A DNA stretch of 64,000 nucleotides from Boothiomyces macroporosus. Its lineage: Eukaryota > Chytridiomycota > Chytridiomycetes > Rhizophydiales > Terramycetaceae. The translations under genes were made by a program, and so were the position numbers. Location of the stretch: the NCBI GenBank assembly GCA_027604185.1, contig JADGKB010000024.1, positions 1 through 64,000 of the forward strand, read 5' to 3'. The notes beneath the pieces were generated by a model that saw nothing but the letters and a program-made list of their open reading frames with translations, did not search any database and was not told the DNA's origin. Positions 142 to 64,000 of the stretch are shown here, piece after piece. The number at the start of each line of letters is the position of its first letter. The stretch's first letter is position 1.

Positions 142-177
142 ATGGAAAAAATTCGTCTTCCAAAGCTAAAACTTTAA
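142..177 (+). other. Short upstream ORF of the NAPE-PLD-like gene
   Basis: An ATG at 142 opens an 11-codon frame that ends with TAA at 175-177. The last A of that stop is the first A of the ATG at 177 used by the main gene (TAATG overlap). This geometry could support stop-restart translation, but no 5' end of the transcript is known, so the uORF may lie outside the mRNA. Confidence 0.3.
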
Positions 178-1300
178 TGACGAAAATCACGAAAACGAAT
201 GGCAGAGAATTTCAAATTCCAAAGCCTACAGTGCCGCCATCGCACCATAATCCAAATGGAGGATTCATCAATCCTTGGAGCAGCTTTATTGCAGCATCTT
301 TTTCTGATGGATTCAAAATGATGAGAACGCTCCTTACGACTTCACCTAAACCAACCGTGAATGAACTTCCAAAAGTAGTAGACGTAGATTTCAAGAAAAT
401 CAGAGCAGTTAATGACGGAGAAGCCAAAGAGACAATGCTGGTAATCATTTTTAACGCAGGCAACTTGGTTGGGGCATGCTGCAATGCTGGTATCAGTAAA
501 AGGCTCAAACGTACTGTTTGATCCGTGTTTATCAGAAAGATGCTCACCAGTGTCTTTTGCAGGACCAAAGAGACTCGTTCCTCCACCTTGCAAATTTGAA
601 GTAACCATAATTAACCCAGGAACTACCGAATGTCGATGTAGTTGTTATCAGTCATAACCACTACGACCATTTGGACTTGCCTGTAATGCAGAAGTTGGCA
701 AAGAAGGATACCTGGTTCTTTGTGCCGTTGGGAAACAAAGATTTGTTGGTAGAATCTGGAATTGCAAATGTGGTCGAGTGTGATTGGTGGGATGAATATC
801 AAGTATCGAATGACAGGTTTGATATAAAGATTGCTTGCACTCCTTGCCAGCATTTCACTGGTAGATCTTTGACAGATAGATTTAAAACCTTGTGGAGCTC
901 ATGGGTTTTAATGTCTGGAGAGAAGCGCTTCTTTTTTGGTGGTGATACTGGCTATAGAACTGTTAGAGAAGGAATGGATGAAGAAACAGCACCAGTTTGT
1001 CCTGCGTTCAAGGAAATTGGTGAAAAATACGGACCATTTAATCTTTCTGCTATTCCAATTGGTGCATATTCTCCAAGATGGTTCATGTCTGCTGTGCACT
1101 GTAATCCAAGGGATGCCGTGGACGTTCATGTAGATATTAAATCTCAAAAGTCTGTGGGTATGCACTGGGGAACTTTTATCTTGACAAACGAGCCAGTCAA
1201 TGAACCTCCTATTAAATTATTGGAAGAAATGAAAAAACGAGGGCTAGATCCAAACGCTTTTCATGTAGTTGATATCGGAGGTAATGTCGCTGCTGTGTAG
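177..1300 (+). CDS. NAPEPLD: NAPE-hydrolysing phospholipase D-like metallo-hydrolase
   Basis: Exons 177-440, 460-600 and 620-1300 give 361 residues, close to the usual length. Both introns are exactly 19 nt, and splicing restores the alignment at TWVGHAAM and at the zinc site. The family cleaves N-acyl-phosphatidylethanolamine to N-acylethanolamine plus phosphatidic acid on membranes. Visible marks are the metallo-beta-lactamase motif SHNHYDH near residues 146-152, GGDTGY further on, GAYSPRWFMSAVHCNP, and the late MHWGTF motif. The family's characteristic FDPCLSERCSPVSFAGPKR stretch is present. The ATG at 177 was chosen because an upstream ATG at 142 is out of frame. No signal peptide is evident. 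Substrate preference is inferred from the family. Confidence 0.92.
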
Positions 1301-1527
1301 TGGGCGGCTTGCAAATCACATTGTGCGGCGAAACTTGAATTTTGTCAACCAACCCCAATAAATTCTTTCAAAGTTATGGGTCGCGGCAATGTCTGTTTTT
1401 AATTTAATATAGAATTACTGTGCAGGGCCCTAAATATCTGTTGCTGTTGTCTGTCTTTCAAGATCAGTCACACGCCACTTCAATATATTTTGGCGAAGGA
1501 GGGCCGTGAAATTTGACAAGTTAAGAA

Positions 1528-1802
1528 ATGCCATCTGCTGAATTCGAAAAAGGTATCTCTAGGTCTAACCGGTAGCCGCTGAAGACGCAAAGAACTTGCC
1601 AACCAAGCCATCAAACGACGACCTCTTAACCCTCTACGCTTTGTTCAAGCAAGCTACCGTTGGTGATTGCAACACCGACCGCCCTGGAATGCTTGACTTT
1701 ACCGGAAGAGCTAAATGGGACGCATGGAATGCAATTAAAGGAACTTCCCAAGCAGACGCTGAAACAAAGTACATTGCTAAGGTCAAGTCTCTTCAAGGTT
1801 AA
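1528..1802 (+). CDS. ACBP: Acyl-CoA-binding protein
   Basis: Exons 1528-1552 and 1576-1802 encode 83 residues, the normal size for this cytosolic four-helix protein. It binds medium and long acyl-CoA esters and delivers them to lipid synthesis and beta-oxidation. The 23-nt intron is removed to join MPSAEFEKA to AEDAKNLP. The acyl-CoA signature is clear: [19 protein letters not shown], then [11 protein letters not shown], then [13 protein letters not shown]. It follows the NAPE-PLD-like gene by 227 bp and converges on the methyltransferase gene 71 bp downstream. Confidence 0.97.
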
Positions 1803-1873
1803 ATAAACAATGATTGTAATTCTACCCACAATTCAAGTTGCGCCTTTCCTAGAACCCAGATACTATTTATTCA

Positions 1874-3274
1874 TTACTTTTTTGTTACAATTATGGCCAT
1901 GTTTCTGGGACTAACATCGGGATCAGCCATTGCAATTAAATCCACATTAAAGTTATTTTCTGACATGTAGATACAACGATCTGTTAAGATGAGGGACTCT
2001 ATCACATTGGCCAGCATGGTTCTTAGTGTCCATATTGCAGCTATCTGGCTTTGAACAGAAGCGTACCACTCAAATGTGCCAAGCACCAGGCCATCCTCTA
2101 ATTTTTGTTCGCATCCTAATCGTTCAAGTGCGGCTTTGGTATACGTTACTGGGTTTGTGCACGCCTGTGCCCCCAGCTTCTTTATCGCTACTTCCCCGTT
2201 GGTAGATTTTATAGCGTCAGATTGGTCTTGAGAGGTAATAACTATCTTGTTATCCACAAGTAATTTTTGCAAAACTGATCTGTAAAATAATCGACGCAAT
2301 GACTCTTTGATTGCTGGGTAATCTTCCCATCTCTGTGCAGCTTGACTATGTTACAGCCAGTTTTACCATGATACCATTCTGTTGTGAAGACCAAGCTGAT
2401 ATGGTTTTAATGGACTGGACAATGGGAAGCCTACTAAATCGCTTTCATTTGAGCTTTCAGTCAGTAGCTGATAGCAACCTACGGTGAAAATACTCTTACA
2501 CCCAAGATTAACAAGCCCAGCTACATTTGCTTTTGTATACTTTTTAAAACCATCAAGCATGGAGACAGCCAGGTTACCGCAAGTATGTAGCCCACAAATT
2601 ATCCAAGTCTTGTTTGTAACATCTGGAAAACTCGATTCTACTTTATCAAATATTGCTTCAAAGCCATCTTGGATTGAAATCTTTCCAGTCATGAACCTTA
2701 ATACTCCTCTGACTTGCTTCTGATGAAGGGAATACAGATTCAGAATCCTTTTCGCCCGCTGTTCACCGCCAGAGGTTTGCAAGATATCGCTATCCACAGC
2801 AATAACATTATATCCATACTGATAAGCTAATACTGACGACAAATATCCTTGTCCAGCGCCAAAATCCAGGATATGTGTAACACCATTCTTTACACAAATA
2901 TCATCAATATACACCGCAGTTGATTTTACTTCGGCAATCTTTTTCTGCTTCATCCCAATTTCTACTTCCTTGTCCAACTGACAATATTTTAAATCGTTTG
3001 ACGGAAATCTATTCAAACCCAAATTTGTTGCTTTATGGATAAACTCCTTTAACGAATCTGGCCATGACGGATCCACTTTGCCTTTTGCTACTATATCACA
3101 GAGAGTTTCCAGTCTCTCAAACTGGAGAAACTTCCAATCATCAGGAAATTTTGTATTCCAATAATCAGTAATTAAAAAATCAATCGCAAAGAAATCCGAT
3201 AGCCAGGAAAATTCCTGTATGAAAGCCTTCAATTCATCGATGGTTTGAATTGTTTGCGATAAATTTTTAGACAT
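1874..3274 (-). CDS. METTL25/RRNAD1-family methyltransferase
   Basis: Exons (transcript order) 3274-2367 and 2345-1874 encode 459 residues; one 21-nt intron is removed within NRMVSC-QAAQRW. The SAM-binding loop ILDFGAGQGYLSSVLAYQ is followed by VIAVDS (acidic ribose contact), and the family motif GLHTCGNLA and the NLGC strand are present, as in METTL25 and METTL25B (Methyltransf_32). Human members have been linked to ribosomal protein or rRNA methylation; the substrate here is not known. The start codon lies only 28 bp from the divergent start of the DHX37 gene. Confidence 0.82.
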
Positions 3275-3302
3275 TTTGGAATTTTTTTTTTCAAAGTTAA
3301 TT
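3275..3302. promoter_or_regulatory. 28-bp bidirectional promoter spacer (METTL25-like / DHX37)
   Basis: The whole space between two divergent start codons is 28 bp. It is a T-tract followed by CAAAG and a short A/T stretch. The same T-tract to C(GC) to A-tract layout recurs in other divergent spacers of this window. Promoter function is inferred from position only. Confidence 0.45.
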
Positions 3303-7312: not shown

Positions 7313-8023
7313 ATGGCTCCTTTCTTTGGGTAAGTAACCATCAGATCTTGACCGATCACTGAGCAGGACTAATGCCATAGCAAAATCTATTCATATGCAA
7401 ACAATCCTCGTGTCCAAAAGGCCTTAATTGCTGCTAAATACAACAAATTGGATGTTCAAGAAAGTATAATTTCAGTCGGAAAGGAAAACACTTTGCCTGA
7501 ATTCCTTGCAAAGTTCCCATTAGGAAAGGTACCTGCATTTGAAGGAGCGGATGGGTTTACAGTGTACGAAAGTAATGCAATTGCCTACTATGTTGCAAAC
7601 CAAGAAGGAACCCAATTGTTGGGCAAAAACGAAAAAGAAGCCGCATTGGTTCAACAATGGGTTGTATTTGCTGACAACGAGTTTTCTCAAGCAGCTGCAG
7701 CATGGCTGTACCCAATCTTTGGTATTGTCCCGTACAATGAAGAGGCAACCAACAAAGCCAAGGAAAACGTCAAGAAGTCTTTAACTGGGCTCAACAGACA
7801 TTTGGCCAACAAAACTTTCCTTGTTGGAGAACGTGTTACCTTGGCTGATATCGTCTTGGTGACCTGTCTCTATGACTTTTTTGATTTAGTCTTTGATCCT
7901 GCATTTATGGCTCCATTCAAGCACGTACAGCGCTGGTACGTTACTGCTGCTAACCAACCGCACTTTAAAGCAGTCCTTGGAGAAGTTAAGCTTTGCCAAA
8001 AGATGAAGGTTGCCAAAAACTGA
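7313..8023 (+). CDS. GST-only eEF1B-gamma paralogue
   Basis: Exons 7313-7329 and 7381-8023 encode 219 residues. The protein matches the glutathione-transferase half of translation elongation factor 1B gamma (LPEFLAKFPLGKVPAFEGA, ESNAIAYYVA, ERVTLADIVL) and stops just before the linker where the neighbouring full-length gene continues. It lacks the C-terminal eEF1G domain. The first intron is 51 nt, unusually long here, and sits after the codons for MAPFFG, the same place as in the paralogue. It is a tandem duplicate of the gene that starts 191 bp downstream. It may retain GST activity or act as a shortened gamma subunit; this is open. Confidence 0.88.
7330..7380 (+). other. 51-nt first intron of the GST-only eEF1B-gamma paralogue
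   Basis: This intron begins GTAAGTAACC and ends GGACTAATGCCATAG. It is more than twice the usual length in this window, and its position matches the 50-nt intron of the next gene. Branch-like CTAAT lies close to the acceptor, as in the tiny introns. Confidence 0.85.
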
Positions 8024-8214: not shown

Positions 8215-9512
8215 ATGGTTTTCGGGTAAGTGCGATTCGCTTTGAATGATTATCAAGAGCAGAACTAATCCTTAGAAAAATCTACACCTATCCAAACAAC
8301 CCACGTGTTCAAAAGGCTTTGATTGCTGCCAAGTACAACAACCTTGAAGTTCAAGAAAACATTGTCGCCATTGGAAAAGACAACACCACCCCAGAATTCC
8401 TTGCCAAATTCCCACTTGGAAAGGTCCCAGCCTTCGAAGGTGCTGATGGATTCACCCTTTTCGAAAGCAATGCTATTGCTTACTACGTTGCCAACAAGGA
8501 AGGAACCCAACTCTTAGGAAAGACCCGCAAGGAAGCTGCCTTGGTTCAGCAATGGGTCGCTTTTGCTGACAATGAATTTGGACCAACTGCTGCTGCTTGG
8601 TTGTACCCAATCTTAGGCTTCTACCCTGTCAACGAAGCTGCTACCAACAAGGCTAAGGAAGATGTCAAGCGCACTCTTTCTGCTCTCAACAAGCACTTGG
8701 CTACCAAGACTTTCCTTGTCGGTGAACGTGTTACCTTGGCTGACATTGTTTTGGTTACATCCCTCTTAAGATTCTACGAATTAGTTTTCGACAAATCTTT
8801 CTTGGCTCCATTCAAGAATGTCCACCGTTGGTTCACTACTTGTGTAAACCAACCACAGTTCAAATCTGTCCTTGGAGAAGTTAAATTCTGTGAAAAGATG
8901 CGCGTTGCTGATGCTTCTGCTGCTCCAAAGGCTGCTGCTCCAGCTAAAGAAGCTAAGCCAGCAAAGGAAGCTAAACCAGCTCCAGCCAACGAAGATTTGC
9001 AAAAGGCTCTCGATGCTGAAGCTGCCAAGCCAAAGGAAAAGAACCCATTAGACCTCTTACCAAAATCTTCCTTTGTCTTGGATGAATGGAAAAGATTCTA
9101 CTCCAACAACGACACCAGACCAACTGCTGTAGACTGGTTCTGGAACCACTTTGACCCTGAAGGTTACTCTATTTACAAAGTTGACTACAAGTACAATGAT
9201 GAATTGACCCTTGTATTCATGTCTGCTAACCTCATCGGAGGATTCTTCCAACGTCTTGACCACATGAGAAAATACCTTTTCGCATCTTTGGTCGTTTTGG
9301 GTGAAAACAACAACAGCAAAATCACTGGTTACTTTGTAGTCCGTGGATCTGAAATTCCATTCGGAATCCAAGACACTGTTGACTATGAATCCTACAACTT
9401 TGAAAAGGTTGACCCATCCAACAAGGCAGTCCGTGAACGTGTCAACGCTATCTTTGCTTGGGACGAAAAGATTGATGGAGTCAAGTTTGCTGATGGTAAA
9501 ATCTTCAAATAA
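8215..9512 (+). CDS. EEF1G: Translation elongation factor 1B gamma (full length)
   Basis: Exons 8215-8225 and 8276-9512 encode 415 residues. Domains in order: GST-like N-terminal half to about residue 205, an Ala/Lys/Pro linker with repeated AKEAKPA units, then the eEF1G C-terminal domain (KNPLDLLPKSSF, NDTRPTAVDWFWNHFD, DHMRKYLFASLVV, FGVxG-type region ending KIFK). It anchors the eEF1B exchange complex that recharges eEF1A with GTP. The first coding exon is only 11 nt and the intron is 50 nt. The coding sequence is more C-rich at third positions (ACC, TTC, AAG) than its neighbours, as expected for a very highly expressed gene. Confidence 0.97.
8226..8275 (+). other. 50-nt first intron of eEF1B-gamma
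   Basis: The intron starts GTAAGTGCGA and ends GAACTAATCCTTAG. With its paralogue it is one of only two introns of about 50 nt that I could place with certainty. It may carry expression-enhancing information, as 5'-proximal introns of translation genes often do in fungi; that is inference. Confidence 0.85.
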
Positions 9513-10282: not shown

Positions 10283-10290
10283 TAAAGATT

Positions 10291-11323: not shown

Positions 11324-12037
11324 ATGAATCGCATTTTCGGGACTTCGAAACCACAGCAACCAAAGCCAACGGTTCAAGATGCGATAAATAAGGTACTTTT
11401 ATTTCATACCAGACCGACGAAAGGGCGGATGCGGTCCATGTCAAAATAAGAAAATTGGATGCAGAGCTAATGCGGTACAAGGATCAGATGCAGAATATGA
11501 GGGAAGGGCCGGGAAAAAACGCAATCAAACAGAAAGCAGTTAGAGTATTAAAACAGAAAAAGCTTTACGAAACACAGTTGGAGTCTCTGCAGCAACAGTC
11601 ATTCAATATGGAGCAAGGTTCCTTTTACTTACGCGTAGCATCAATGACCACAGAGAACCTAAAGAACACAATGATTACATTCGACGCTATGCAAATAGCA
11701 AACAAGGAATTGAAGAAACAGTACAAGAATATCAATCTGGACAAGATAGAAGTAGATCTTGGCTAATGGTAGAAAGTACAAGATGAAATGGAAGATTTGC
11801 TGGAGCAAGCGAATGATGTTCAAGAAGCATTAAGTAGAACCTATGGAGTTCCAGATGATATTGACGAAGCTGATCTTGAAGCGGGTAATCTTTCTTAATG
11901 CAGAATTGGATGCCTTGGGTGATGAACTGCTCTTGGAAGAAAGCGAGCCAAGCTACCTACAAGAACCTGAATTCACCGCTCCAAGCGTACCTGGTGGATT
12001 TGTCAGTGAAGCTGCCCCAACTGGTAGATTAAACTAA
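11324..12037 (+). CDS. CHMP5: ESCRT-III protein VPS60/CHMP5
   Basis: Exons 11324-11392, 11413-11751, 11773-11884 and 11904-12037 encode 217 residues (human CHMP5 has 219). Introns are 20, 21 and 19 nt. This is a late ESCRT-III subunit acting with Vta1 and Vps4 in multivesicular body sorting and membrane scission. The N-terminal stretch [16 protein letters not shown] and paired basic helix ([16 protein letters not shown]) are followed by the acidic C-terminal region [20 protein letters not shown] and [19 protein letters not shown], all characteristic of CHMP5. Confidence 0.96.
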
Positions 12038-16960: not shown

Positions 16961-17514
16961 ATGTCGTTGTTGTATACATCCCAAAAACAAAAGAGAAAAC
17001 CAAGGCCAGAACTAACCGATGATCAGAAACAAGAAATCAAAGAGGCGTTTGAACTGTTTGATACGGACAAGGACAACGCTCTCGATTACCACGAGCTCAA
17101 AGTAACTTTTACTAACTCAGGTTGCCATGCGAGCGCTAGGATTCGACGCAAAGAAACCAGAAGTCTTAAAAATACTGCGAGATTTTGATAAAACCAACCA
17201 AGGGCTTATCCAATTTGACGATTTCCAAAAAGTCAGTAAGTTGTCTTTTATTGTAGTGACGGAAAAGATCTTGGATAGAGATCCAATCGAAGAAATCCGC
17301 AAGGCGTTCAAATTATTTGATGACGATGGAACAGGAAAGATTAACTTGCGCAACTTGCGAAGAGTTGCCAAGGAAATTGGAGAAAACATGGACGACGATG
17401 AGCTGCAAGCGATGATTGACGAGTTTGATCTTGATCAAGATGGAGAGAGTAAATATCACTAATCTAGTCAATGAACAAGAGTTTATCAACATCATGACTG
17501 ATGCTAATGACTAA
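16961..17514 (+). CDS. CETN: Centrin
   Basis: Exons 16961-17101, 17121-17235, 17257-17448 and 17468-17514 encode 164 residues with four EF-hands. Introns are 19, 21 and 19 nt. The basic leader ([19 protein letters not shown]) is typical of centrin. EF-hand loops start at [36 protein letters not shown] and DLDQDGEINEQE. Centrin is a calcium-binding protein of basal bodies and centrosomes and also joins nuclear pore and DNA repair complexes. The 21-nt middle intron has no in-frame stop, so retention would add seven residues before the third EF-hand. Confidence 0.97.
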
Positions 17515-19041: not shown

Positions 19042-20160
19042 TTATTGAACAATAGGATCCACATCAATATTTTCAGCTTCTTTGAGTGCTTCTACAGGTG
19101 GTTTATAGTCGAATCTAGGGTGAGTTGTCAATTACCGCCAGACCAATGCATCTTCGCCAACAAACACGAGATTGTTGCTATTATAAGATCAGATTACCAA
19201 TTTCTCGAAAACGCAGTGCATTTGATAGATTTAGAAGATCGTTTGTGAGATATTTCTGAAACTAGCGACCCGTCCAGCAGCGAATAAATGTTAACAAGAC
19301 CTGTTTCCGTCCCCACGCAAAAGTATTGAAGCTGGGCACTTGGGTAAATACAGCTTACCTGACATCTAATCTGCATTTGTTTCTATCTCCTGTATTAAAT
19401 GTGTGTATAATTGATTCAGTCTCCAAATTCCAATATACAATTTTTCCATCCACAGATTTAGTCAGAACATTTCCACCAACAAACTGAATAGAATCTAATT
19501 AGCTAAGCCGTACCAATCTCGCTCGCATGCGAAATAAAAACAGTGTTGAATTCCAAATTACGATCATTCAAATTGATTTTGTACAGGGATCCGGACATGT
19601 TTCCTGCCACCAACCAAGAACCAAATTGATCAATCGCCTGATTTAGAAAGGTTATACAATTCTGCTTGCGTCACATGGTATACTATGCTTAATTGCTCCC
19701 TGGAGATCCCAGATAAAGATTCCTTCATCTGAGCAAGTAATCAGAGTTTTCTCCCTGGAAATTATATCATAAATTGGCCCTGAATGTCCAGTAAATGTTG
19801 AAAGCTCTTCTGATTCTGCAACACTTAATATATGAATCGATCCGCTGATATCTCCCACTGCCAACCAGATATCGTATTCCACTTTGATCCAGCAGCAGCA
19901 AGTCTTTGTGAATAAACGATTACCAAATTCTGATCGCAGTTGAATTGCGACATGATATCCAAGTGAGTCCCGCAGTGTTCGTTATCATAAATATTTGCTT
20001 GTTTCCCTCCAATCACTGCCAACAAGTTGGTTGGATTATAAATATCTTTGATTTCAGACTTGAAAAAACAGCATTCGATTAGGCATTCGCCGTGGTTTTC
20101 TTTTATTAATCGAGAGAGATGGAGATTCTCAAGAAATGTCCTTTCGTCCTCCACTGTCAT
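19042..20160 (-). CDS. EED: EED/ESC-like WD40 subunit of Polycomb repressive complex 2
   Basis: Exons (transcript order) 20160-19924, 19903-19658, 19637-19514, 19494-19359, 19338-19198, 19177-19136 and 19114-19042 encode 332 residues. Introns are 19 to 21 nt and two end in AAG. The blades follow EED: an N-terminal strand with LLAVIGGKQANIYDNE, then WLAVGDISGSIHI, LTKSVDGKIVYWNLE, QYFCVGTETGLVNIY and the last blade CTAFSRN...EDALVWRFDY, which parallels the human SFSRDSSIL...DDASIWRWD region. EED binds trimethyl-lysine and stimulates the EZH2 methyltransferase. It is about 100 residues shorter than human EED, mainly at the N-terminus and in loops. Confidence 0.75.
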
Positions 20161-20473: not shown

Positions 20474-22215
20474 ATGCAATTTACATTTCATAGCACTATT
20501 CAATCACAGGTGGAAATATCCAGCGAAGCAAACGAACTTGCAAACGCGAAAGAGTTTATCAAAGGTATCTCTAGAGTTGACTTAGATAAATTGTTTTTCG
20601 TATGCCTATCAAGAGCACCCCAAGATACTGACAATATTCATTTCTTTACTGTTGATGATACGTTTGTGTATACCAATTTTTATGCCGACTTTGGCCCATC
20701 AAATATGGCACATGTAGTTAGATTTTGTTACTATATGCAGGATAAATTCCACGTAATGATTGGTTGATTGTAGAATCCTCAAACCGCAAACAAGACTCTG
20801 TGTTTATATTCTTCTTTTGAAATCGATAGGAGAGCGAACGCGGCATTCTTGTTGAGCGCCTATATGGTAGCTTGTATTAATGTAGATGATTGTACACCAA
20901 AAGACACCCGAAGATGCGTATCAATCGTTACTGGGAATCACTCCGCCATTGATTCCTTATCGAGATGCTGGATATGGACCGGCGACATATCACATCACAG
21001 TATTAGACTGCCTTCGTGGATTAAATAGAGCAATGCAACTAGGGTTATTTGATTTGCAAACTTTTGATTTAGAAGAATACGAATTTTATGAAAAGGTAGA
21101 GAATGGGGATTACAACTGGATTACAAACAAGTTTGTTGCCTTGGCGGCACCAAAAGACGATTTGCAAGAGCAGGGGATCACTATTAGCAGATACTCTCAA
21201 CAAGGAAAGCCCTTGTTTTCAGCATACAGAATGACGCCGCTAATTCATTGGATGCTGCAAAATAACGTACGCACGATTATAAGATTGAATAACAAGACGT
21301 ACGATAGAACAAAATTCCTTAAAGCGGGTATCGAGCATATAGAATTGTATTTCCCTGATGGTTCCACCCCTCCAGATACTATTTTGAAAAAGTTTTTGGA
21401 GATATGCGAGACCAGACCAGGTATACTGGCTTTAAAGATAGGACCAATCGCCGTTCATTGCAAAGCTGGATTGGGACGAACTGGGTCGCTGATTGCTGCA
21501 TATTTGATGAAGCATTACAGACTAACTGCATGTGAAATCATTTCATTTATGAGAATTGTCCGTCCAGGTAGTGTCGTTGGACCCCAGCAAAACTATTTGC
21601 AAGCGTACTTTTTCATTAAATTAGAATCCAATCAAAATTATGGAAAATGACACCTGCAGTAAAGCTTACACCGTATATTTCTTGTTGGGTCCACCCAGAG
21701 CCTTTAACGAGATTTGGACAAGTAGTTGTCAAGGCTGCACAGCCGTTAGTACAGGAACGCATTGCTTCTGGATCAAAAAAGAGATACGAATCATATGCTC
21801 CTGGAGATATGAGAGCTTACAGAACTGCAAATGAGGTCGAAGAGTTTGAAAAACAAATTCTGAAAGAAAGGAGTCTGGTATCTACCAAGCAGATTGAAGA
21901 ATTATCGATCCCTGTCCAACCAAGAAAGCATTTACTTTCAGAAGAGGTAATATCAACTAATTAAAGGAAAAGAAGCATGTTCCGCATTCCTTTTTGCAGC
22001 AAAACCATATCCCTACCCCAGAAATCAGTAATAACAGGTACCATTTACGATCAAAATCCGCTAACCAAGCATTCACCACTCCTAATCGGCCTCGCCAGTT
22101 TGTAGGATTTGAAGCTGATTTAATTGTCCAAGAAAATCAAGAAATATTTGGGTTTGTAGATCAATCAGGGGAGATAGAGGCTGGGCATTACAAGCAGAAA
22201 AGATTGGCACAATAA
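20474..22215 (+). CDS. CDC14: Dual-specificity phosphatase CDC14
   Basis: Exons 20474-20752, 20774-20866, 20886-21420, 21442-21604, 21625-21946 and 21967-22215 encode 546 residues. Introns are 21, 19, 21, 20 and 20 nt. The catalytic loop AVHCKAGLGRTG and the upstream FDLEEYEFYEKVENGDYNW, RLNNKTYDRTKFL and FPDGSTPPDTI segments are diagnostic. The non-catalytic domain A is present (FYADFGPSNMAHVVRFC). CDC14 reverses CDK phosphorylation at mitotic exit and also serves basal bodies. The ATG at 20474 is the first in frame; the open frame extends upstream without an ATG, so the true N-terminus may include another exon. The C-terminal tail from about 440 is basic and disordered. Confidence 0.95.
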
Positions 22216-23014: not shown

Positions 23015-23555
23015 ATGGTTAGGGAATCACAAGCAGAAAAAGCCGTCAGATTTCTGGAAGAAACGACACCAGAGGAAAGGAAAAACTTTCTAAAGGAAGG
23101 AATAGTTGTAGAAACTGTTGGAGAAAGAGTCTCAAGAGCTCCAAAGTCAGTAGCAGCGAAACAGGGAGAAAAGATTGAGAAGCTGTTTCAAAGGATTGAT
23201 ATCCCAGTTGATTTACCAGCCAATTACAAAGAGGAGGCACAGCCAGGTAACTCCTAATAACATAGATTATGTGCATAATATTCCGGTACAATCTTCGGGA
23301 TCTGGACATGGGGATAATTCAATTTACAGAGTGCTGTTCAAAAAAGATCATTCCAAGGGGAAGCTGATGGATATAGAAGCGGAAATTGTAAGCGGTGATT
23401 AAATATAGCGACAAGAGCAAGAAGATTTCACACAAAAGATTGAACTGAACAAGAAACTGGCTGCTGAACGGACCGCAAAGAAACGGGAAAAGAGACTAAA
23501 GAAAAAGACAAAGCTGTCCAAGAAAGATTTAAAATCATCTCTAGTGGATTCTTGA
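23015..23555 (+). CDS. PRKRIP1: PRKRIP1 homologue (spliceosomal C-complex protein)
   Basis: Exons 23015-23246, 23266-23387 and 23409-23555 encode 166 residues; introns are 19 and 21 nt. The family hallmark runs from VHNIPVQSSGSGHGDNSIYR through a long basic helix (IRQEQEDFTQKIELNKKLA, AERTAKKREKRLKKKTKL), matching human GSSAGAGSGEFHVYR and EEQTAKRRKKRQKLK. Human PRKRIP1 is a long helix seen in catalytic spliceosomes. The stop codon is 6 bp from the convergent stop of the hydrolase gene. Confidence 0.85.
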
Positions 23556-34408: not shown

Positions 34409-35314
34409 TCAAAAAATCCCGTCGTTAGCTACCCATTGCTTGAACTCTTCTATCAGCGTGACCGGAATACCGAACGTTGTCTGCTGCTTTCCATCTTTTT
34501 CAAAGCTGATTATACAGTTAAAAAACTCTTCTCCGGTTCGCAGGGTAAGCCAAATCTTTAGTTTGTTCTTGAACTCTTTTTTGTTTTTTATATCTACACC
34601 CAGATCTTCAAGCACTCTATCGTTAATCCAACGTACTTTTTGTATTTCACGGTTTCAAGCTTGGTGTCAATCAGTGCAAGATCAAAAAGTGCAAAAGGCT
34701 CCTCATCTTCGTCTTTTTTGTGTTTCTTGTTTGACTCATTGCTGGATTCTGCCTTTCTCTTCTCAGGTCTTTTGAATCCTTCTTTTTCTAGCTCTTTAAA
34801 CCACTGCACAAATGTCTGAGCGAGCTCTTCTGGGATCAAGTACTGTCTTTGTGAGTTTCCATTTGGCAGACAGGGTTTTGGATCCAAATTTACCAACCGG
34901 CAATTTTCTTTTAAAAAATCTGCCAAAGAATACCTCACTCGCTTTTCTATAGTGGCGTCAGATTTGAATGAAGGATAGCCTTTCTTTATAACCTCTTTCC
35001 ACACTATTAGTTTCCTATTATCGTCTTTTGAATCGTCGTTTTCATCCCTTTCTTTTTGGCGAACAAAATTCAAAGAGTCTGTCCCAAATTCCTTTTCAAA
35101 AGCCTTTATATACATTTCATGATACTCCTCTGGCAGCGCTCCTACGGTCAAGTTTAGTTACCTGACGCTCGAAATCCCTGTCTGGCAATATTTACATCTT
35201 CAATTTTATGCTCAGTTTTAAATGATTTGAAAAAGGTGGAGAAATGAGCAGTTGCGGTAGTCTTGAATGTAGGATATTTGGTTCGAATAACTTCCGTCCA
35301 AGGTCTAGGTTTAG
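34409..35314 (-). CDS. Protein with repeated WxEVI..YPSFK units (5' end unresolved)
   Basis: Exons (transcript order) 35314-35162, 35141-34637 and 34616-34409; the two introns are 20 nt. The sequence carries two copies of a module of about 75 residues: PWTEVIRTKYPTFKTTAT and VWKEVIKKGYPSFKSDAT, each followed by a helical LxxFLK segment. A lysine-rich acidic linker (KRKAESSNESNKKHKKDED) separates them from a third, degenerate part. I do not recognise the module. There is no ATG in frame for the first exon. A 51-nt intron (35315-35365) would join it in frame to the coiled-coil gene upstream, giving one 495-residue protein. Confidence 0.6.
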
Positions 35315-35354
35315 CTTATAAAAAAGAACGAAATTGAATAGCAAGAGACAATTT

Positions 35355-35987
35355 CTAGTTTTGACTTACTTCCAGCCTATTTTTGGAGATGGCGGAGCCT
35401 GCACTTCTGGTTCTACTTCCACTTTTGCTATCCTCTAATTTTAAGACTGCGGTTACTCTAAACTTCATATCCTCCAACCGAAGGGATTCCCTTTTCTTCT
35501 CCCGCTCCCGTTCAAACTCGCTGATAGTTGCTTTCTGCTTCTCTATAGTCTTTTTGTAGCTCTCCAATTGGCTTTCGAGGGACCTGAGGTTGTTTTCATA
35601 ATTCCCGATATCAATATCCTTTTGTTTCAAAATATTCTCTGCTCGCTCCAGATTCTTTTGTAACTGTATAATAGTGTTATCTCTATTCGTAAGCGTCTGA
35701 GCCAAGTCGTCTGAAGTTAACACATGATTACTTATTGTATGCTTCATCGATCCAACTTGCCGATTCCTATCCATTTGTACTTGGTCGATATATTCATTTA
35801 ATTTGTGTACCTCTGTTTCATGTCTACAACAAACTCTTGGTGCTGGTGGTGGTGGTAATTCCCAGCCAGCTCTGTGAATAGGAGGAGGAGGCAACCTTGG
35901 AGGATACGCCCAGCGGTCTTGATGTCGCCTGTGGTCCATATCTTCTGGTCTGTGATGGCCATGATGTGGAGTGTGGTTTGGAAACAT
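35355..35987 (-). CDS. Proline-rich N-terminal and coiled-coil protein
   Basis: A frame of 210 residues starts at 35987 with a His/Pro-rich leader (RPEDMDHRRHQDRWAYPP, then PPPPIHRAGWELPPPPAP) followed by a continuous coiled coil from about 60 to 180 and a Ser/Arg-rich end. It may stop at the TAG at 35355 or be spliced at 35365 into the WxEV-repeat exons downstream; frame allows both. No family is recognised. Confidence 0.6.
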   Translation of the reverse strand: MFPNHTPHHGHHRPEDMDHRRHQDRWAYPPRLPPPPIHRAGWELPPPPAPRVCCRHETEVHKLNEYIDQVQMDRNRQVGSMKHTISNHVLTSDDLAQTLTNRDNTIIQLQKNLERAENILKQKDIDIGNYENNLRSLESQLESYKKTIEKQKATISEFEREREKKRESLRLEDMKFRVTAVLKLEDSKSGSRTRSAGSAISKNRLEVSQN

Positions 35988-44791: not shown

Positions 44792-46383
<1,592 letters not shown>

Positions 46384-48650: not shown

Positions 48651-50603
48651 ATGGAGGATGCAAAACTGTATTTGAAAAATCAAATTGTTCAGGCTATTGA
48701 TTATTTCGACTATGATCTAGGAGAAATGCTGGCGGAGCGGCTACTATCGTTTGATCCTCATTGTCCGGATTCGCAGTTCCTTTTTGCCAAAACATTGTAC
48801 CTTGGAGGAAATATCAAAAAGGCATTATCAGTAATAGATTCTACTTGCAAGCATACACAGTCGATTATTCTATATGGAAACTGTTGTCTAAAGCTGGGTA
48901 ATTATCAGGAGGGGGAAGTAGCATTAAGGAGATGGCTGGATTGCAATCACACAGAATCACCCTCCGCTGTAGCAGCAGTATACGCCCTCATTGGTAATCT
49001 TTGTCGGTTTGATCAAGATTAACACAGGCATGTTGGAAGAACTGCAGAATCTACATCATCATTTCTGGATTCCATAAAACACAATCCATTTTATTATACA
49101 TCCTATATCGGGCTAAGTGATTTGGGTAATATGAAGTTGATAGAAGGTGTGCCCTTGAAAATATCAGACTACTTGAACATTCAAAAGATTTTGAACAAAC
49201 GAGAGTACATTTATTTAACAAAAGAAAGCCTACAGTTACCAAGGAACCAGCAGTTTCAAAAAAGGTAACTAAGCGTTGATGTTAGAGGTCAAATGATGGT
49301 AAAGTTATCAAACCGTCAAGCAGGGAACCACTGGCTTCGAAAATGACAGTGGAAACCAGAAAGCGCGTCCAAGTAAACAAACCACCCGTGAAGGTACTTG
49401 ATTCTTAATCAAAGAAACTTGCTGGGGATTTTGGGATTAAGCTTGAAAAAGAAAATTACTCTATTGATGACCTAGTGTTTGTTGCGCAGAAAATCTTGAT
49501 GGCGTATAATGCAATGTCTTTATACCGATGCAATCACTCGCTGGAAGTATTGAACAGTATTCCTAAGGAGCATTTGAATACCGGTTTTGTTCTCTCAATT
49601 GTAATATTTGCTAATCAAGAAAGCAAAATGTCTTTATGAACTCCAAAGATACCGACAGGTTGCACAGCTTTAACTTCAGGCTGCAGATGTCTTTAGAGAA
49701 ATAAGGTTACTATTGCTAATTGCTAGGATACTTGACCCTTTCAGATTTAAAGACATGGATATATATGCAACTTGTCTTTGGCATCTGAAAAGAAAGGTTG
49801 ACTTGTGCATTCTTGGAAAAGAATTAGAAGGCACAAATAGACTTGCGCCAGAAACTTGGTGTGTCATTGGAAACTATTTTTCGTAATTGTTACTAAAGTA
49901 GATTGTTGGCTGAACACGATTCTGCCATTGAAGCTTGCAAAAGAGCAATTCAACTTGATCCTAATTTCACTTATGCTCATACTTTGCTAGGTCATGAGTA
50001 TTTGGCCAACGAAGATTTGGAAGCATCAATGAATAGTTTTAGACAAGCTATGAGAATCAATGCGAGACACTATAACGCCATGTATCATTTAGCTTAATTT
50101 AGATACGGATTAGGATTAATTGAACTTAAACAGGAAAAATATCCCGTTGCAGAGCATTTTTTCAGAATGGCACTACAAGTAACTCCAGAAAATACTATAT
50201 TATTGGATGTCTTGGGACAGGCTATTCAAAAAGAGAAAACAAGGAACGACGAGGCTTTAAAATTATTTGAAAAGGCTTTGGAGCTCGCGCCAGAGCACAG
50301 GGTATATCTCTGGCATAAGGCCACTCTACTATTTGAAATGGGTAAATACAATGAAGTCCAAAAGATCTTGGAATACGAAATATCAAATACCAAACCTGAC
50401 ACTCAGGTTCTTTTTCTTTTAGGTCGAACCTTTGCGAAACTCGGTGCTAAACAAAGTGCAATCAAATACATGACACTGGCACAAGATTACCAAGAACACA
50501 AGTCTAGCAGTATTATTAAAGACTCGATAGGTAAATTGAGTTCATTGTAGAGAAACTATTTAGCAAAGAAGAAAATTTGGAAGGAACAAATGAGTTTCTA
50601 TGA
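48651..50603 (+). CDS. CDC27: Anaphase-promoting complex subunit APC3/CDC27
   Basis: Exons 48651-49006, 49028-49264, 49288-49393, 49415-49600, 49620-49658, 49680-49705, 49727-49882, 49902-50081, 50103-50530 and 50551-50603 encode 588 residues; introns are 19 to 23 nt. The N-terminal TPR dimerisation domain (YFDYDLGEMLAERLL, CLKLGNYQEGEVALR) is followed by a shortened linker and C-terminal TPRs: FRFKDMDIYATCLWHLKR, TWCVIGNYFS, FTYAHTLLGHEYLANEDLE and ARHYNAIYGLGLIELKQEKY. These are diagnostic of CDC27. The linker is far shorter than in animals. Exons of 26 and 39 nt occur. The last 20-nt intron is inferred; without it the protein ends at 50550. Confidence 0.95.
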
Positions 50604-54317: not shown

Positions 54318-56087
54318 TTATTGCTCAAAACTAAGATAGGATTTAGGAACAAACCCTTCCTTTCCATCTTCATATTTGCAGTGAGTCCATCTATTTTAAA
54401 TAAAACCTACCCATCTCCATTTTCTTTCACTAGAATTAGTATATCTCCAGAGTTCACACTCATCTCTTCGGGTGAGTTACTATCAGCTACAAAATCATAT
54501 AAAACTTTCAATTTCCTAACATCCCCTGGAGAATTGGTTGAAGTGGCAGGAGCTTCTTGTGAGTTTGACCCATTCGAAGGATGTGAAAAAGACAAATTTG
54601 GTGCATTTGAAATGGATCCATTTGAAGGGTGACTGTTCGAGCCACTTGGGGGATTAACGGAGCTGGAACTAATCCCCGCCTCAGACATATTCTTTGGACT
54701 GCTTACAAATGCTGGGGCTTCTGGTGCTGGCTTTCCATCTATTTTTGCAACATAGCAATGCAGACGATGTTTTTGAGTCAACAGTTGATTTAACTTCACT
54801 TCCACATCGTTTAACTGATCACTAGTACATTCGAGTATTTTCAAAGGATTACCCTGAGTTAGAACTTCGTACAGAGTCTTTGTATGCTCCTTTTAAAATA
54901 TCTACACCTTGTCTCTGCTTCTCTACTTCAACAATTTCCTTATCCAACAGTTTAATTTTTTCCATGGCTTTCTTTTTACCTAGTATAAGGAATTCTCACC
55001 TTGTTTATCCGGCAATTTTGTGATTTCACTTTCACTCTCATAGTCTAACCTCAATTCATCTCGACTTGAACTACGAAGTGCCAATTTCTTAGAGTGAACT
55101 TCAGAAGTATCAGCAATACTAAAGTCCAAAGGAGGTTCCAAACCGGTTTTAAGTGACTTAATCAGAGCATCATGATCCAACGAAGAGCGAACAGCATCAT
55201 TAACAGCAATAGCTTCTCCAATAATTGCTTGCTCCTTTGGCAGAACAGCACTGGAAGTAGCTAGAAGTCGAAGAAACACTTGTTGTACAAAACTGATCCG
55301 AGAATCGCTATCACACTTCTGAACTTGCTAAATTATTAATGAAAATATACTGTTAGATTTTGCGGCAACTGATCAAAATAGTAACTATTTTTAAATTTGT
55401 TCAGCTCAATCACTGATTCGCGATAGCATTTTACCGCTTCTTGAGAAGCCAATATTTGTTTATCATAATCCATTTTGATTTTATCCATATCCTTCTTTGA
55501 CATTTTTAAATCTTTCAAGCTCTTCTTATATTGGGCAGTGCAAGTATCCAAATCTTTTAACTCCCGTTTGTAATTTGAATAATTCTTTTCCATCATTGCA
55601 ATCATATCCGTCAATTGGTTAGCTCCCCTCTTTATCTCTTCAAATTTCAAAAGTAAGAAAATTATTACCTCTTTAAATACACCTTCAATATCTTTTGAAG
55701 TTGTCTTTATAAGTTTCCTTTCATTCAAAAATATTTCAGCAGTTTCAACACGCAAAGAACCAAGCGATTCGTAAGAATCTAACATTTTCTCCCACGATTT
55801 AATGGAGGTGCTAGATAAAAATCAACAAACCTTTCTGTAACGGCTTTGTAAAAAGGGTATTTCTCAGTTTTCTCCTGGAGTTTCTTTATCTCCTCTTTGT
55901 ATGGTTTCACTGCTCGTAAGAGTGCTTTGCCATATTCCAATTCTGCATTGGAAACAATTTTCAAAAACTCATTCATAGAAATGAGTTGTTCGGCCCCGAA
56001 TTCGCAATATTTTTCTAGCTGCTTCACTTGATCCTGAATTAGAATACGCTGTACCCATAGATCTTTTCCAAAGCTCAATGCATCCAT
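54318..56087 (-). CDS. F-BAR, HR1 and SH3 protein (TOCA/CIP4/Bzz1-like)
   Basis: Exons (transcript order) 56087-55831, 55810-55351, 55327-55000, 54979-54873, 54853-54411 and 54390-54318 encode 555 residues; introns are 20, 23, 20, 19 and 20 nt. An F-BAR domain occupies about 1-290 (MDALSFGKDLWVQR; long basic coiled coil). A linker, an HR1 hairpin (MEKIKLLDKEIVEVEKQRQ) and a C-terminal SH3 (KVLYDFVADS, SVNSGDILILVKENGDGW, GFVPKSYL) follow. Such proteins bend membranes and recruit WASP. The segment VIIFLLL in the F-BAR coil is oddly hydrophobic and coincides with a possible 21-nt in-frame intron at 55648-55668. Confidence 0.88.
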
Positions 56088-60589: not shown

Positions 60590-60884
60590 GACGCGAAAAA
60601 AACCAATAGGAAAATATACAAATAAATCCTAATTATATACATATTAATCTTTAGTTATCAATGCTTTTCAATAGGAAATTTAATTGAATCCGTAATCTCA
60701 ATTTTCTTTGCCAAGCCACAAGGGTATAACTTAAAAAAGAAGGCTGACGAATTTCGAAAAAAGAAATCTTTGGTTTCGCCAACAGTGCTTTTAGAATTTC
60801 TTTTCAAACATTATAAAGCTGTCAAAACCAATCAATAACTTAGTGTGCAATCTTAAAACACACCCAACGAAATTAAAATAACAT

Positions 60885-61273
60885 ATGCCCGCCTTGATTC
60901 CTACAGTACTGGAATCTGTTGATGATGCTGAACCAATAGCAGTTTGCACAATCTATTCACCACCGCTTACCCACATGTTTTACTTCACGGTAACTATTAC
61001 TAATCTAGACGGGTAGTAAAAGAGGGTGGTTGGGGTAGCACCTCTAGTGAAGGCCTCATCTGGGGTCCCAGAGGTGAAGGTTTGAATCCCACCTTTGGTT
61101 ATGATGCAGCAAAAGCTTTTCTATTGTCTGTATCTTTGAATAATTTAAAGATCTCTCCTAATGCCGATTTGGGATGTATCTATGTTGCTTCAAGACATGT
61201 TCCTCTCTTTGTTTTTAACTCTACCATTTTTATTCAGTTTGTGGATATCCATGAAATAGCTGTCCGGGATTAG
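60885..61273 (+). CDS. Small hypothetical protein with a 20-nt internal exon
   Basis: Model 60885-60989, 61009-61028 and 61048-61273 gives 116 residues. Both introns would be 19 nt (GTAACTATTACTAATCTAG and GTTGGGGTAGCACCTCTAG). The frame closes only if both are removed, leaving a 20-nt exon between them. The second intron lacks the usual CTAAY. The product begins MPALIPTVLESVDDAEP and later reads GLIWGPRGEGLNPTFGYDAAKAF; no family is recognised. The alternative is that the region is not coding. Confidence 0.35.
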
Positions 61274-61463
61274 TACTTTTGAATTAATCTAGTATTGTAA
61301 TGCTTCTAAATCTAGCGGAAGAAATGCAGTGTGATTGCGTAGTTGGGGTTCCTTCTAGTTTGCAGGCTTGCTGCATGTCGTTGATCTCGATGGGGTTTGA
61401 ACCCGCAACCATTTTCCAAAGTGAATCACTTTTATTTTTTGGGTTCAAAATCTAGAATAAAGA

Positions 61464-61798
61464 ATGGTAGTAAAACGTTTACCAACAGCACACTATATTC
61501 CTAACGCAGCTGAGTAATGATGAAGTGACCAAGTATTGGAATGAGTACGAAAACAAAGATCAAGCAATCAAAGGTCAACAGCGCTAATGTAGATATTGTG
61601 GGAATGTTTGAAAATTACAATTTCCAGCTACACCCAAAGAATGCTCAGGTTCAGTACACACTGGAGGACTTTGAAAAGTACTTTGATAACATTAAAGATA
61701 TTGGATTATTAGTGTTGGATTCAAATTCCGGAACTTATCTGCCGATATCAAGAAATACAATTAAAAAGATGGTTGGTGGATCTAATTGTAGGCTCTAG
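61464..61798 (+). CDS. Small hypothetical protein with an ATG-only first exon
   Basis: Exons 61464-61466 (the ATG alone), 61489-61573 and 61593-61798 encode 97 residues; introns are 22 and 19 nt. The second intron GTCAACAGCGCTAATGTAG is convincing and joins DQAIKD to IVGMFENYNF. The product is polar, with a C-terminal part reading KDIGLLVLDSNSGTYLPIS. No family is recognised. The first exon model is the only one that opens the frame, but a longer unspliced 5' end in another frame exists. Confidence 0.5.
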
Positions 61799-61854
61799 AC
61801 TATCTGGCAAACACCAATTGAAATAAACAAGAATTTTTTTTCAAATTAGAAAAA

Positions 61855-62097
61855 ATGTCTTTAAAACTCGTTCAGAAAACACTAACAGAAAAGCCAAAAG
61901 AAACAGAAAAGAAAAAAGTATTTAAAAGGGGAGCATTCAAATCAATCCAAAAGAAGAAACAGAAAAGACGGGAAGCAGTTCCAGAAATAAAGGAAACTGA
62001 ACCACAAAATATCCTGCAAAAGAACATAGAAACTCTGCTTCAATTAAAGAAAACTGAAAAAGAAAAACAAGTTGCCAAATTAGCTGTAAAGGAATAA
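61855..62097 (+). CDS. Small lysine-rich protein
   Basis: A single exon of 80 residues with about 30 percent Lys (KKKVFKRGAFKSIQKKKQKRR) and a C-terminal amphipathic helix. The composition suggests a nucleolar or RNA-binding factor but no family is recognised. A T-tract/CAAA/A-tract element like those of the divergent spacers precedes the ATG. It ends 4 bp from the convergent stop of Met22. Confidence 0.55.
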   Translation: MSLKLVQKTLTEKPKETEKKKVFKRGAFKSIQKKKQKRREAVPEIKETEPQNILQKNIETLLQLKKTEKEKQVAKLAVKE

Positions 62098-62101
62098 ACC
62101 A

Positions 62102-63132
62102 TTATTTATGCAATACTTGCTTGACAGCATTCAATACTTGGTCATGAATCTTTCCATTGGTCGCAATAATCCCTCTATTGCTCTTTAATGTTCTTCCTTG
62201 AGAGAAATCCAACTCTTTTCCATCAATATCAGTTACTTTGCCACCAGCTTCACTCACCATCAATGATCCACCAGCATCTACATTAGTAATAATTACGATC
62301 CCAGATCTTTTCTTGGTAATCAGCCCTAGTTGGTATTCTAAGATATATTCCAGCATCGCCTCTGGCAATAACGGCGTATTTGCATTGAGAATCCATTCTG
62401 ATTGGTTTGTTTTTGATATTTAGTAGCTCTGCAATTTTAAACGTATCTGATTGATTGGAGTGAGCAGCTTCTACTGATTCGCAAAAGCTGGTATCACTTG
62501 GAGATTCAGCATCAGCAACTTTAACTCTAGTTTCTTTGCTGTCTTCAAATGATCGCTATGTTAGAATCATTTACTTCAAACACACCTTGGTGCTTTACGG
62601 CAACCATTAATGACCCTCGTTGTGAATTTGGGTCATTGATATTTCTTGGCAAGTTAGGGCATCCTTGAATAGCTACTTTAACTTCTCCGTTAACAATCAG
62701 CGATAAACAAACAGCAAACTGTTCTCCTCGCAAGAATCCTTTTGTTCCATCAATAGGATCTAATGTCCAGAATCTTCCTTGTGGACCTCCTTTGTAATTT
62801 CCTAGATCGATCGCATCCAGAATTTGCTTGGTTGATAATGGGGTTTCCACTACTGAATTCGTCAATTCAACCACTTTATCACATAGCGATTGATTTTCCC
62901 TCAAATCCTTGGAATCCTCTTCGCCGACTATCGGATCATTTGGAAATGCTTGATGAATAATGTGGTTAACCACAGCTTGAGCTCCGAAATCCGCAACAGT
63001 TACTGGTGAGGCATCTTCTTTAACCAGCGTCTGGGATTTGACCAATTTATTAAATACCGCCTGGCACAATTTACTGGCTTTGATTACGGCTTCAATTCCT
63101 TTTGCTCTTTCACCAGCGTATAATTTCAACAT
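62102..63132 (-). CDS. MET22: 3'(2'),5'-bisphosphate nucleotidase (Met22/Hal2)
   Basis: Exons (transcript order) 63132-62575, 62555-62297 and 62277-62102 encode 330 residues; both introns are 19 nt. The enzyme removes the 3'-phosphate from PAP, the by-product of sulfate activation, and is the sodium and lithium-sensitive target of salt stress. Metal-binding motifs are present: PIVGEEDS, DPIDGTKGFLRGEQFAV and EKIWDHAGGSLMVSEAGG. SPVTVADFGAQAVV gives the N-terminal substrate region. The start is 43 bp from the end of the next gene on the same strand. Confidence 0.95.
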
Positions 63133-63175
63133 GGAAAAATTTAGAGAGATGAAAATCAATTTAAAAAAAATAATA

Positions 63176-64000
63176 TTAAATAACAAAACCCCAAACTTCA
63201 AGAGTAGCAATATTGTATTCGGTTGAGCTTGATAGCATTTCATTGTTGAATGTCTCGCATTTTTCAGAGTGTCCGTTATTTAGTTCATCGTCGATCCACA
63301 ATCCAAACTTTCCATGGCTATATCAGCAAAACTTACCCGCCTCCAAAGGCAATACAATGTGCTTCAGATAATACGTAGTAATCATTCTTTCCAGTCGCGT
63401 GGTACACTTGAATGTCTTCTCCCTGCATCTTCCAAAGGAAACTGGATTAGTAAATGGTACCTGCTACCATTCCCATAGTATCCTGGCTGTATATGTAATT
63501 CTTCAGAGGAAAAAGCACCGAATAACTGTCCATTTGTGTCTTTAATTACTACCAAACAAGGGCCCTTTTCTGCGGTATTGTGATATAAAGTATGAATGCT
63601 GATTCCATGATTTTCCAGTGAATATAATAATGTGACATTGGAAGCTTCTTGCAGTATAGGAGGCAAGTGGTGGTGTAACTAGCATAAACTATTAATTGCC
63701 TTTTTGAGAATATCCAAACTAAAGCTAGGCTTCTCATACTCTATTACTTCTTGATGGGTAGGTATATATACATTCTGCTGAGTATAATCTTCGTGTAAAA
63801 CTTCTGGAAAGTCAAATTCTTCCAATTCGGAAGCATCGAATAAAACCAGTTTTTTTGATTCTGGCTCTTCAATATTTGGGACTCGTTAATATCTATTTAC
63901 CTGCTTCAGGAGGCGTCTGTACAACTGGTGATGTTTCTGGCGAACCAACAGGACTTGTTGAAAGACCAGCCAAGTCATATATAAATGAAAGAAAGTTTTC
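63176..64000 (-). CDS. TLDc domain protein (OXR1/NCOA7/Restriction of telomere capping-like), partial
   Basis: Exons (transcript order) at least 64000-63901, 63881-63700, 63678-63461, 63441-63337 and 63317-63176; the 5' end lies outside the window. The TLDc domain is clear: LPPILQEASNVTLLYSLEN, LVVIKDTNGQLFGAFSSE, YYGNGSSFLWKM, VYHATGKNDYYV, CIAFGGG, FGLWIDDELNNGHSEKCETF and the final ATLEVWGFVI. TLDc proteins act in oxidative-stress resistance and bind V-ATPase. Introns are 19 nt except 63679-63699, where a 21-nt GC-AG intron is needed to remove an in-frame TAG. The first visible intron ends in GAG. Confidence 0.88.
63679..63699 (-). other. Putative 21-nt GC-AG intron in the TLDc gene
   Basis: The minus strand reads AAG then GCAATTAATAG and TTTATGCTAG before the next codon TTA. 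Removal keeps frame and deletes a TAG that otherwise interrupts the TLDc coding sequence. No GT donor in the region gives the right frame. Confidence 0.6.

Follow-up and report, generated by a model that had tools for sequence, protein, structure and literature searches.

Can introns of about 20 nucleotides (nt) be the rule in a fungal nuclear genome, and how would a spliceosome act within so little space? The question is raised by a 64,000-nt stretch of the chytrid Boothiomyces macroporosus (hereafter, the window; positions 1-64000 of contig JADGKB010000024.1, our C24, in a 15.2-Mb assembly of 216 contigs). An earlier note on the window had placed about 140 introns there and described 19-23 nt as their near-universal length. 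We confirmed the observation of 19-23 nt introns, and it extends beyond the window. The most probable reading of these segments, to which we assign a probability of about 0.94, is that they are U2-type GT-AG spliceosomal introns of near-minimal and nearly fixed length, found throughout the B. macroporosus nuclear genome.

Intron lengths in the window and across the genome

Genes were modelled with an independent gene finder, a generalised hidden Markov model whose training data were long open reading frames only, in a 304-kb genome sample (2% of 15.2 Mb; 25 pieces, from contigs C1-C20, C24, C40, C60, C80 and C100); earlier runs used a 264-kb sample. Under a peaked length prior, 148 of the 160 introns in the window are 19-23 nt long (150 of 162 once the finder was retrained), close to the count first proposed, and the seven introns that the earlier note had quoted were recovered to the base. 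The peak is also present beyond the window: 502 of 550 introns in the 304-kb sample fall at 19-23 nt (107 of 19 nt, 191 of 20 nt, 146 of 21 nt, 46 of 22 nt and 12 of 23 nt). The sample mode is 20 nt, whereas a genome mode above 40 nt had been named in advance as the outcome that would speak against the claim.

A run free of short-intron training influence, in which GT and AG were the only splice motif and the prior was flat (12-400 nt), placed 96 of 377 introns (264 kb) at 19-23 nt, against the ~5 expected from a flat distribution. Learned splice-site matrices combined with a flat prior of 10-400 nt placed 269 of 463 introns in this range in the 264-kb sample and 361 of 475 in the 304-kb sample (middle of three gene-start settings; 364/500 and 337/441 under the two others). 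Because the matrices were first trained on short introns, these latter runs carry short-intron influence. Introns outside 19-23 nt were spread thinly in the flat-prior run, a few at most per length.

Free of any gene model, the pattern GTAAT-N(2-32)-CTAAYNNNAG has 591 matches in the whole 15.2 Mb, compared with 252 for the reversed pattern. Among the 100 matches listed of these 591 (contigs C1-C7), 73 span 19-23 nt, and the remaining 27 are scattered, never more than 3 to a length, across 17-18 nt and 26-47 nt. If an ultrashort intron set is one in which nearly all introns lie within a few nucleotides of each other at 15-25 nt, both the sample and the genome-wide pattern count describe such a set. 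Coding sequence holds 2.0 introns per kb, which extrapolates to ~25,500 introns in the genome.

Twelve calls in the window exceed 23 nt. Only the two introns of eEF1B-gamma-like genes (7330-7380 and 8226-8275) are convincing; the call at 35305-35369, with a GTAAGT donor and the acceptor GCTAAACCTAG, is a possible 65-nt intron, and no homolog supports any of the remaining nine. The two apparent introns of ~50 nt suggest that longer introns are still spliced. The eEF1B-gamma-like genes stand in tandem (7313-8023 and 8215 onward) and hold the window's only clear long introns; the first of them, as modelled, matches only glutathione-transferase-type (GST) domains.

Protein continuity across the junctions

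Given that GT and AG are obligatory in the gene finder, evidence for the intron boundaries comes from homolog junctions. We aligned five spliced genes of the window with solved homologs: centrin/CDC31 (3 predicted introns), an NDR/Cbk1 kinase (8), a Hal2-type nucleotidase (2), Cdc14 (6) and Cdc27/APC3 (10). By-eye reading of the alignments placed 25 of the 29 predicted junctions within homolog-aligned stretches, and all 25 are crossed without a gap; the four uncovered junctions are one in Cdc14 and three in Cdc27. A 30th intron of these genes, at 49706-49726, appears as a 7-residue insertion relative to human CDC27; being a 21-mer free of stops, it escaped the gene finder. The window introns, each with its evidence, are as follows.

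441..459, plus strand: 19-nt intron, metallo-hydrolase gene, which we take to be NAPE-PLD-like; exact in gene finder
601..619, plus strand: 19-nt intron, same metallo-hydrolase gene; exact in gene finder
11885..11903, plus strand: 19-nt intron; exact in gene finder
17102..17120, plus strand: 19-nt intron, centrin/CDC31 gene; gene finder, gap-free homolog alignment over junction
17236..17256, plus strand: 21-nt intron, centrin gene; gene finder, homolog alignment
17449..17467, plus strand: 19-nt intron, centrin gene; gene finder, homolog alignment
19495..19513, minus strand: 19-nt intron, gene 19042-20160, presumably WD-repeat-like; exact in gene finder
20565..20585, plus strand: 21-nt intron, Cdc14 phosphatase gene; gene finder, homolog alignment
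20753..20773, plus strand: 21-nt intron, Cdc14 gene; gene finder, homolog alignment
20867..20885, plus strand: 19-nt intron, Cdc14 gene; gene finder, homolog alignment
21421..21441, plus strand: 21-nt intron, Cdc14 gene; gene finder, homolog alignment
21605..21624, plus strand: 20-nt intron, Cdc14 gene; gene finder, homolog alignment
21947..21966, plus strand: 20-nt intron, Cdc14 gene, outside homolog coverage; gene finder
23247..23265, plus strand: 19-nt intron; exact in gene finder
45099..45118, minus strand: 20-nt intron, NDR/Cbk1 kinase gene, Polyrhizophydium insert at junction; homolog and deposited-protein alignment
45318..45338, minus strand: 21-nt intron, NDR kinase gene, translated as GLIILIL in the deposited B. 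macroporosus protein; homolog and deposited-protein alignment
45425..45444, minus strand: 20-nt intron, NDR kinase gene; homolog alignment
45608..45627, minus strand: 20-nt intron, NDR kinase gene; homolog alignment
45674..45694, minus strand: 21-nt intron, NDR kinase gene; homolog alignment
45914..45933, minus strand: 20-nt intron, NDR kinase gene; homolog alignment
46018..46038, minus strand: 21-nt intron, NDR kinase gene; homolog alignment
46214..46234, minus strand: 21-nt intron, NDR kinase gene, translated as RLVAFDN in the deposited B. macroporosus protein, a different 7-residue insert in Terramyces; homolog and deposited-protein alignment
49007..49027, plus strand: 21-nt intron, Cdc27/APC3 gene; homolog alignment
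49126..49146, plus strand: 21-nt intron, Cdc27 gene, translated as GNMKLIE in the deposited protein, 2 residues from the homolog's aligned end; homolog and deposited-protein alignment
49205..49224, plus strand: 20-nt intron, Cdc27 gene, outside homolog coverage; gene finder
49265..49285, plus strand: 21-nt intron, Cdc27 gene, outside homolog coverage; gene finder
49394..49414, plus strand: 21-nt intron, Cdc27 gene, outside human homolog coverage, 7-residue insert in JEL0866; deposited-protein alignment
49601..49619, plus strand: 19-nt intron, Cdc27 gene; homolog alignment
49659..49679, plus strand: 21-nt intron, Cdc27 gene; homolog alignment
49706..49726, plus strand: 21-nt stop-free intron, Cdc27 gene, absent from gene finder models; insertion relative to human CDC27
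49883..49901, plus strand: 19-nt intron, Cdc27 gene; homolog alignment
50082..50102, plus strand: 21-nt intron, Cdc27 gene, 7-residue insert in Terramyces at junction; homolog and deposited-protein alignment
50531..50550, plus strand: 20-nt intron, Cdc27 gene, 7-residue insert in JEL0866 at junction; homolog and deposited-protein alignment
62278..62296, minus strand: 19-nt intron, Hal2/bisphosphate nucleotidase gene; gene finder, homolog alignment
62556..62574, minus strand: 19-nt intron, Hal2 gene; gene finder, homolog alignment
7330..7380, plus strand: exception, 51-nt intron with GTAAGT and ACTAAT, eEF1B-gamma-like/GST gene; gene finder
8226..8275, plus strand: exception, 50-nt intron with GTAAGT and ACTAAT, tandem paralog, equivalent position; gene finder

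Beyond these genes, U2AF65 reaches 342.8 bits, over the cut-off of 310.3, with five introns of 19-21 nt removed; unspliced, it falls into two pieces of 230.7 and 31.1 bits.

Deposited proteins of B. macroporosus and its relatives, found in protein searches that scored 8000 candidates each, with up to 120 listed, bear on the same junctions. The F-BAR/SH3 protein of the window (54318-56087) has two matches at E <= 0.001, a Boothiomyces sp. JEL0838 protein and B. macroporosus HK103_003329, all 478 of whose 478 residues it contains in order. The deposited HK103_003326 corresponds to the window's Cdc27 gene, and both the kinase and Cdc27 are likewise close to deposited proteins. By these matches the DNA comes from B. 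macroporosus (Chytridiomycota, Rhizophydiales, Terramycetaceae) or a nearly identical strain, the species being named on the strength of two deposited proteins. The deposited B. macroporosus kinase holds two translated 21-nt introns and the deposited Cdc27 one, as listed above. Terramyces sp. JEL0728 carries RFTKINN at the kinase site 46214-46234 and YRMLNDS in Cdc27, and the Cdc27 of Boothiomyces sp. JEL0866 has two 7-residue inserts, KVLYHSL (placed to within one residue) and GICYLKL. These four JEL0866 and Terramyces inserts differ in sequence and sit at intron junctions of the window. Divergent 21-nt segments at shared positions, with conserved exons around them, are intron-like, and on this sequence evidence the 7-residue inserts in the deposited B. 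macroporosus, JEL0866 and Terramyces proteins are read as retained 21-nt introns. In the six deposited proteins examined (three from B. macroporosus, one from JEL0866 and two from Terramyces), exons are skipped or tiny introns translated; the B. macroporosus kinase and Cdc27 gene models also drop real exons.

In other chytrids, the Batrachochytrium kinase has no inserts at the intron junctions, nor does that of Gorgonomyces where its shorter protein covers them. The Kappamyces kinase has a 9-residue insert at one intron junction, with residues compatible with a 27-nt GT-AG intron, and the Polyrhizophydium kinase has a 35-residue insert (which would be 105 nt) at another. These two inserts suggest longer introns at the same positions.

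Splice signals and splicing machinery

The 510 sample introns of 17-25 nt share a donor of the form GTA(A)NT, in which position +5 is T in 44-48% and G in 16-18%; GTAATT begins 61 of them and GTAAGT 27. A good branch-like motif (score 8 or 9) is present in 425 of the 510. This YTAAY motif is mostly TTAAT, CTAAT, TTAAC or CTAAC, and a YAG acceptor follows. The presumed branch A is preceded by 13-15 intron nt in 399 of the 425 introns, and 5-6 nt follow it in 365. The remaining 5'-to-A spacings are 12 nt in 2 introns, 9-11 nt in 13 and at least 16 nt in 11; those of 9-11 nt are probably alternative motif picks. Intron GC is 30%, phases 0, 1 and 2 occur 190, 161 and 118 times, and 356 of 502 segments have frame-shifting lengths not divisible by three. 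Stop-free introns are not depleted among those of 21 nt (61 of 146, against 67.9 expected by shuffling), in a set whose detection is biased against such introns.

Searches of the genome with Rfam models gave a U1 small nuclear RNA (snRNA) at 68.8 bits, just below the gathering score of 69.5, with the 5' end AUACUUACCUG, as well as U4, U6 with ACAGAGA and two U2 genes with GUAGUA. The recognition sequences of U1, U2 and U6 match the Rfam consensus. The two U2 genes (142.2 and 135.4 bits) have diverged from each other, being alike in the branch-recognition region and different in the 3' half. Protein-family matches include SF1, which retains its helix-hairpin, KH and zinc-knuckle domains, U2AF65, U2AF35 (in four pieces), an SF3b1 domain and the Prp8 domain RRM_4. 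The predicted splicing inventory is conventional-looking. The earlier note's reading of the segments as spliceosomal introns is supported, and their host is a fungus; the part of its factor inventory that we searched for (U1, U2AF, SF1 and SF3B) yielded matches. Its contention that a normal spliceosome should not fit such introns is not supported: the U1, U2, U4, U6, SF1, U2AF65, U2AF35, SF3B1 and Prp8 families are present, and Stentor, with introns of 15-16 nt, is described as having U1, U2 and U2AF proteins (PMC9505925).

Several points weigh against reading the segments as ordinary spliceosomal introns. The branch site is a motif assignment, and GT and AG are imposed by the gene finder, which errs: besides the missed intron at 49706-49726, the retrained models contain a false one at 45997-46017, the removal of which deletes the conserved VRLVQKK. 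An AG lies between branch motif and acceptor in 28 of 409 introns, and therefore a strict rule of the first AG after the branch fails; internal AG is not clearly depleted either (220 of 502 introns, shuffled mean 231). The helix-hairpin domain of SF1 shows no gain from splicing (113.8 spliced, 114.6 unspliced). U5 snRNA had no Rfam match in the genome, in a search in which no control genome gave one either. Removal of the segments from transcripts, finally, is something we infer.

The Rfam scan of the window itself gave no match, and ARAGORN, run with the bacterial code, found no tRNA there. Intron-pattern or RRM matches recur on contigs C2 (280991/323587 and 293983/336579, offset 42,596 both times), C20 (74251/119318, offset 45,067) and C3 (201949/223567, offset 21,618), which suggests segmental or assembly duplication.

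Rival readings and known ultrashort introns

Sequencing or assembly insertions, or the decay of genes, would leave biologically meaningless segments, and the frame-shifting lengths of most segments are what such errors would produce. We rejected assembly error and pseudogenes, to which we give practically no credence, on the YTAAY motif shared at a fixed spacing, the single length mode, the conservation of the genes and the 7-residue inserts in relatives. Short uniform length and constant ends would equally suit DNA-level elements eliminated from a somatic genome, like the internal eliminated sequences of ciliates, but the segments have a branch motif, the genome encodes snRNAs with matching recognition sequences, and the deposited B. 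macroporosus gene models carry the segments as genomic sequence. Such a soma is not known from fungi, and this reading was likewise discarded as next to inconceivable. It is somewhat less far-fetched, yet still very improbable, that the tiny introns are one class only and that our methods missed many longer ones. The two clear GTAAGT introns of 50-51 nt and the possible 65-nt one point that way, as do 48 of the 109 flat-prior calls of at least 24 nt, in which the peaked-prior models place no tiny intron and no gene boundary (the other 61 contain one or the other). Most of those 48 calls, however, lack the motif, and a scan for GTAAGT plus YTAAY at 30-300 nt chose 3 introns (the two of the eEF1B-gamma-like genes plus a forced artefact), a yield not above the 1-4 obtained with each of six scrambled donor hexamers. 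Calls with other donors in the same scan numbered 1 for GTATGT, 2 for GTAAGA, 3 for GTAAAT and 5 for GTAATT, and a second, longer intron class, not rising above control level, was set aside.

A further reading, which concerns how the introns are recognized and which we consider rather unlikely, is a modified, U1-light spliceosome that applies a fixed 5'-site-to-branch ruler to tiny introns, the rare longer ones needing full U1 pairing. The scarcity of G at +5, where T prevails, agrees with it, as does the use of GTAAGT by both 50-nt introns but by few of the tiny ones, and only 15 of 425 spacings are below 13 nt. Against it stand the U1 RNA with its consensus 5' end and the fact that only two long introns are secure. 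Other lineages, too, have a weak +5 G. A bolder reading, to which we give less than even odds, is that a conventional spliceosome processes ~25,000 introns of 19-23 nt through a length-measuring early assembly, with the branch A held 13-15 nt from the 5' site, relaxed U1 pairing (loss of the +5 G), and U1 and U2 acting in turn. The bolder reading would also have the introns arise inside Rhizophydiales as ordinary ones shrank, on the basis of the shared-position inserts of 35 residues in Polyrhizophydium, 9 in Kappamyces and 7 in Terramyces. In our main reading, that of U2-type introns, removal would proceed by intron definition, with the 5' site recognized by U1 and then by U6, and the branch site by SF1 and U2. 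These factors would occupy the intron one after another, since a span of 13-15 nt falls well short of what the A complex usually covers, given as 79-125 nt for the human one (PMC8363638). The length mode would reflect a deletion bias held in check by a minimum that the distance from 5' site to branch imposes.

Introns of this kind are already known. What is new is their occurrence in a fungus, together with a sharp 13-15 nt spacing alongside consensus snRNA recognition sequences. The earlier note compared the introns with those of Stentor, the nucleomorph and Paramecium; it left out the mikrocytids Mikrocytos mackini and Paramikrocytos canceri, for which 224 introns of 16-17 nt in 179 genes are reported (PMC10245619). 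Mikrocytids and Boothiomyces both have uniform, near-minimal introns in a narrow size range. The mikrocytids are intracellular parasites with a spliceosome of 17-19 proteins and with U2, U4 and U6 identified, according to the same source, whereas Boothiomyces is a chytrid with introns of 19-23 nt, an extrapolated total of ~25,500, and both U1 and U2AF. A strongly reduced spliceosome of the mikrocytid type, with U1 unidentified, is not what we find in Boothiomyces, where U1, U2AF65/35, SF1, SF3B1 and Prp8 all have matches. Nearest in length and narrowness, and intron-dense too, is the chlorarachniophyte nucleomorph, credited with >800 introns of 18-21 nt in ~300 genes (PMC10245619); it is a relict nucleus, unlike the 15.2-Mb nuclear genome of Boothiomyces. 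Stentor and other heterotrichs (15-16 nt; PMC10245619, PMC9505925) resemble Boothiomyces in having ultrashort, uniform introns with U1, U2 and U2AF present, but their introns are shorter and the host is a ciliate. The tiny introns of Paramecium (20-33 nt) and Nyctotherus (21-29 nt) have a similar lower length bound (PMC2633312). Both sets are described as avoiding stop-free introns of 3n length, a depletion we do not see in Boothiomyces, and that account reports no branch motif for Nyctotherus (PMC2633312), whereas the Boothiomyces motif is sharp.

Among fungi, a mean intron length of 63 bp in Cryptococcus is termed relatively short (PMC8476143). The Boothiomyces intron density is of the same order as that of other intron-bearing chytrids, the mean for Chytridiomycota being given as 3.93 per kb of coding sequence from two species (PMC8476143). 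In literature on fungi and chytrids, mostly open-access, we found no fungus with uniform ultrashort introns, in agreement with the earlier note, which knew of no fungal lineage with such a set.

The faulty deposited proteins of Boothiomyces and Terramyces could mislead phylogenies and studies of gene content. Uniform ultrashort introns have been described in ciliates, in the relict nucleus of an alga and in parasites among the Rhizaria, and erosion by deletion has been proposed for reduced genomes (PMC10245619). B. macroporosus would add a fungal system, with U1, U2AF, SF1 and ~25,000 tiny introns, for asking how U1 and U2 fit within 20 nt. Boothiomyces is probably culturable, and it suits the study of intron shrinkage because related chytrids may hold longer introns at some of the same positions.

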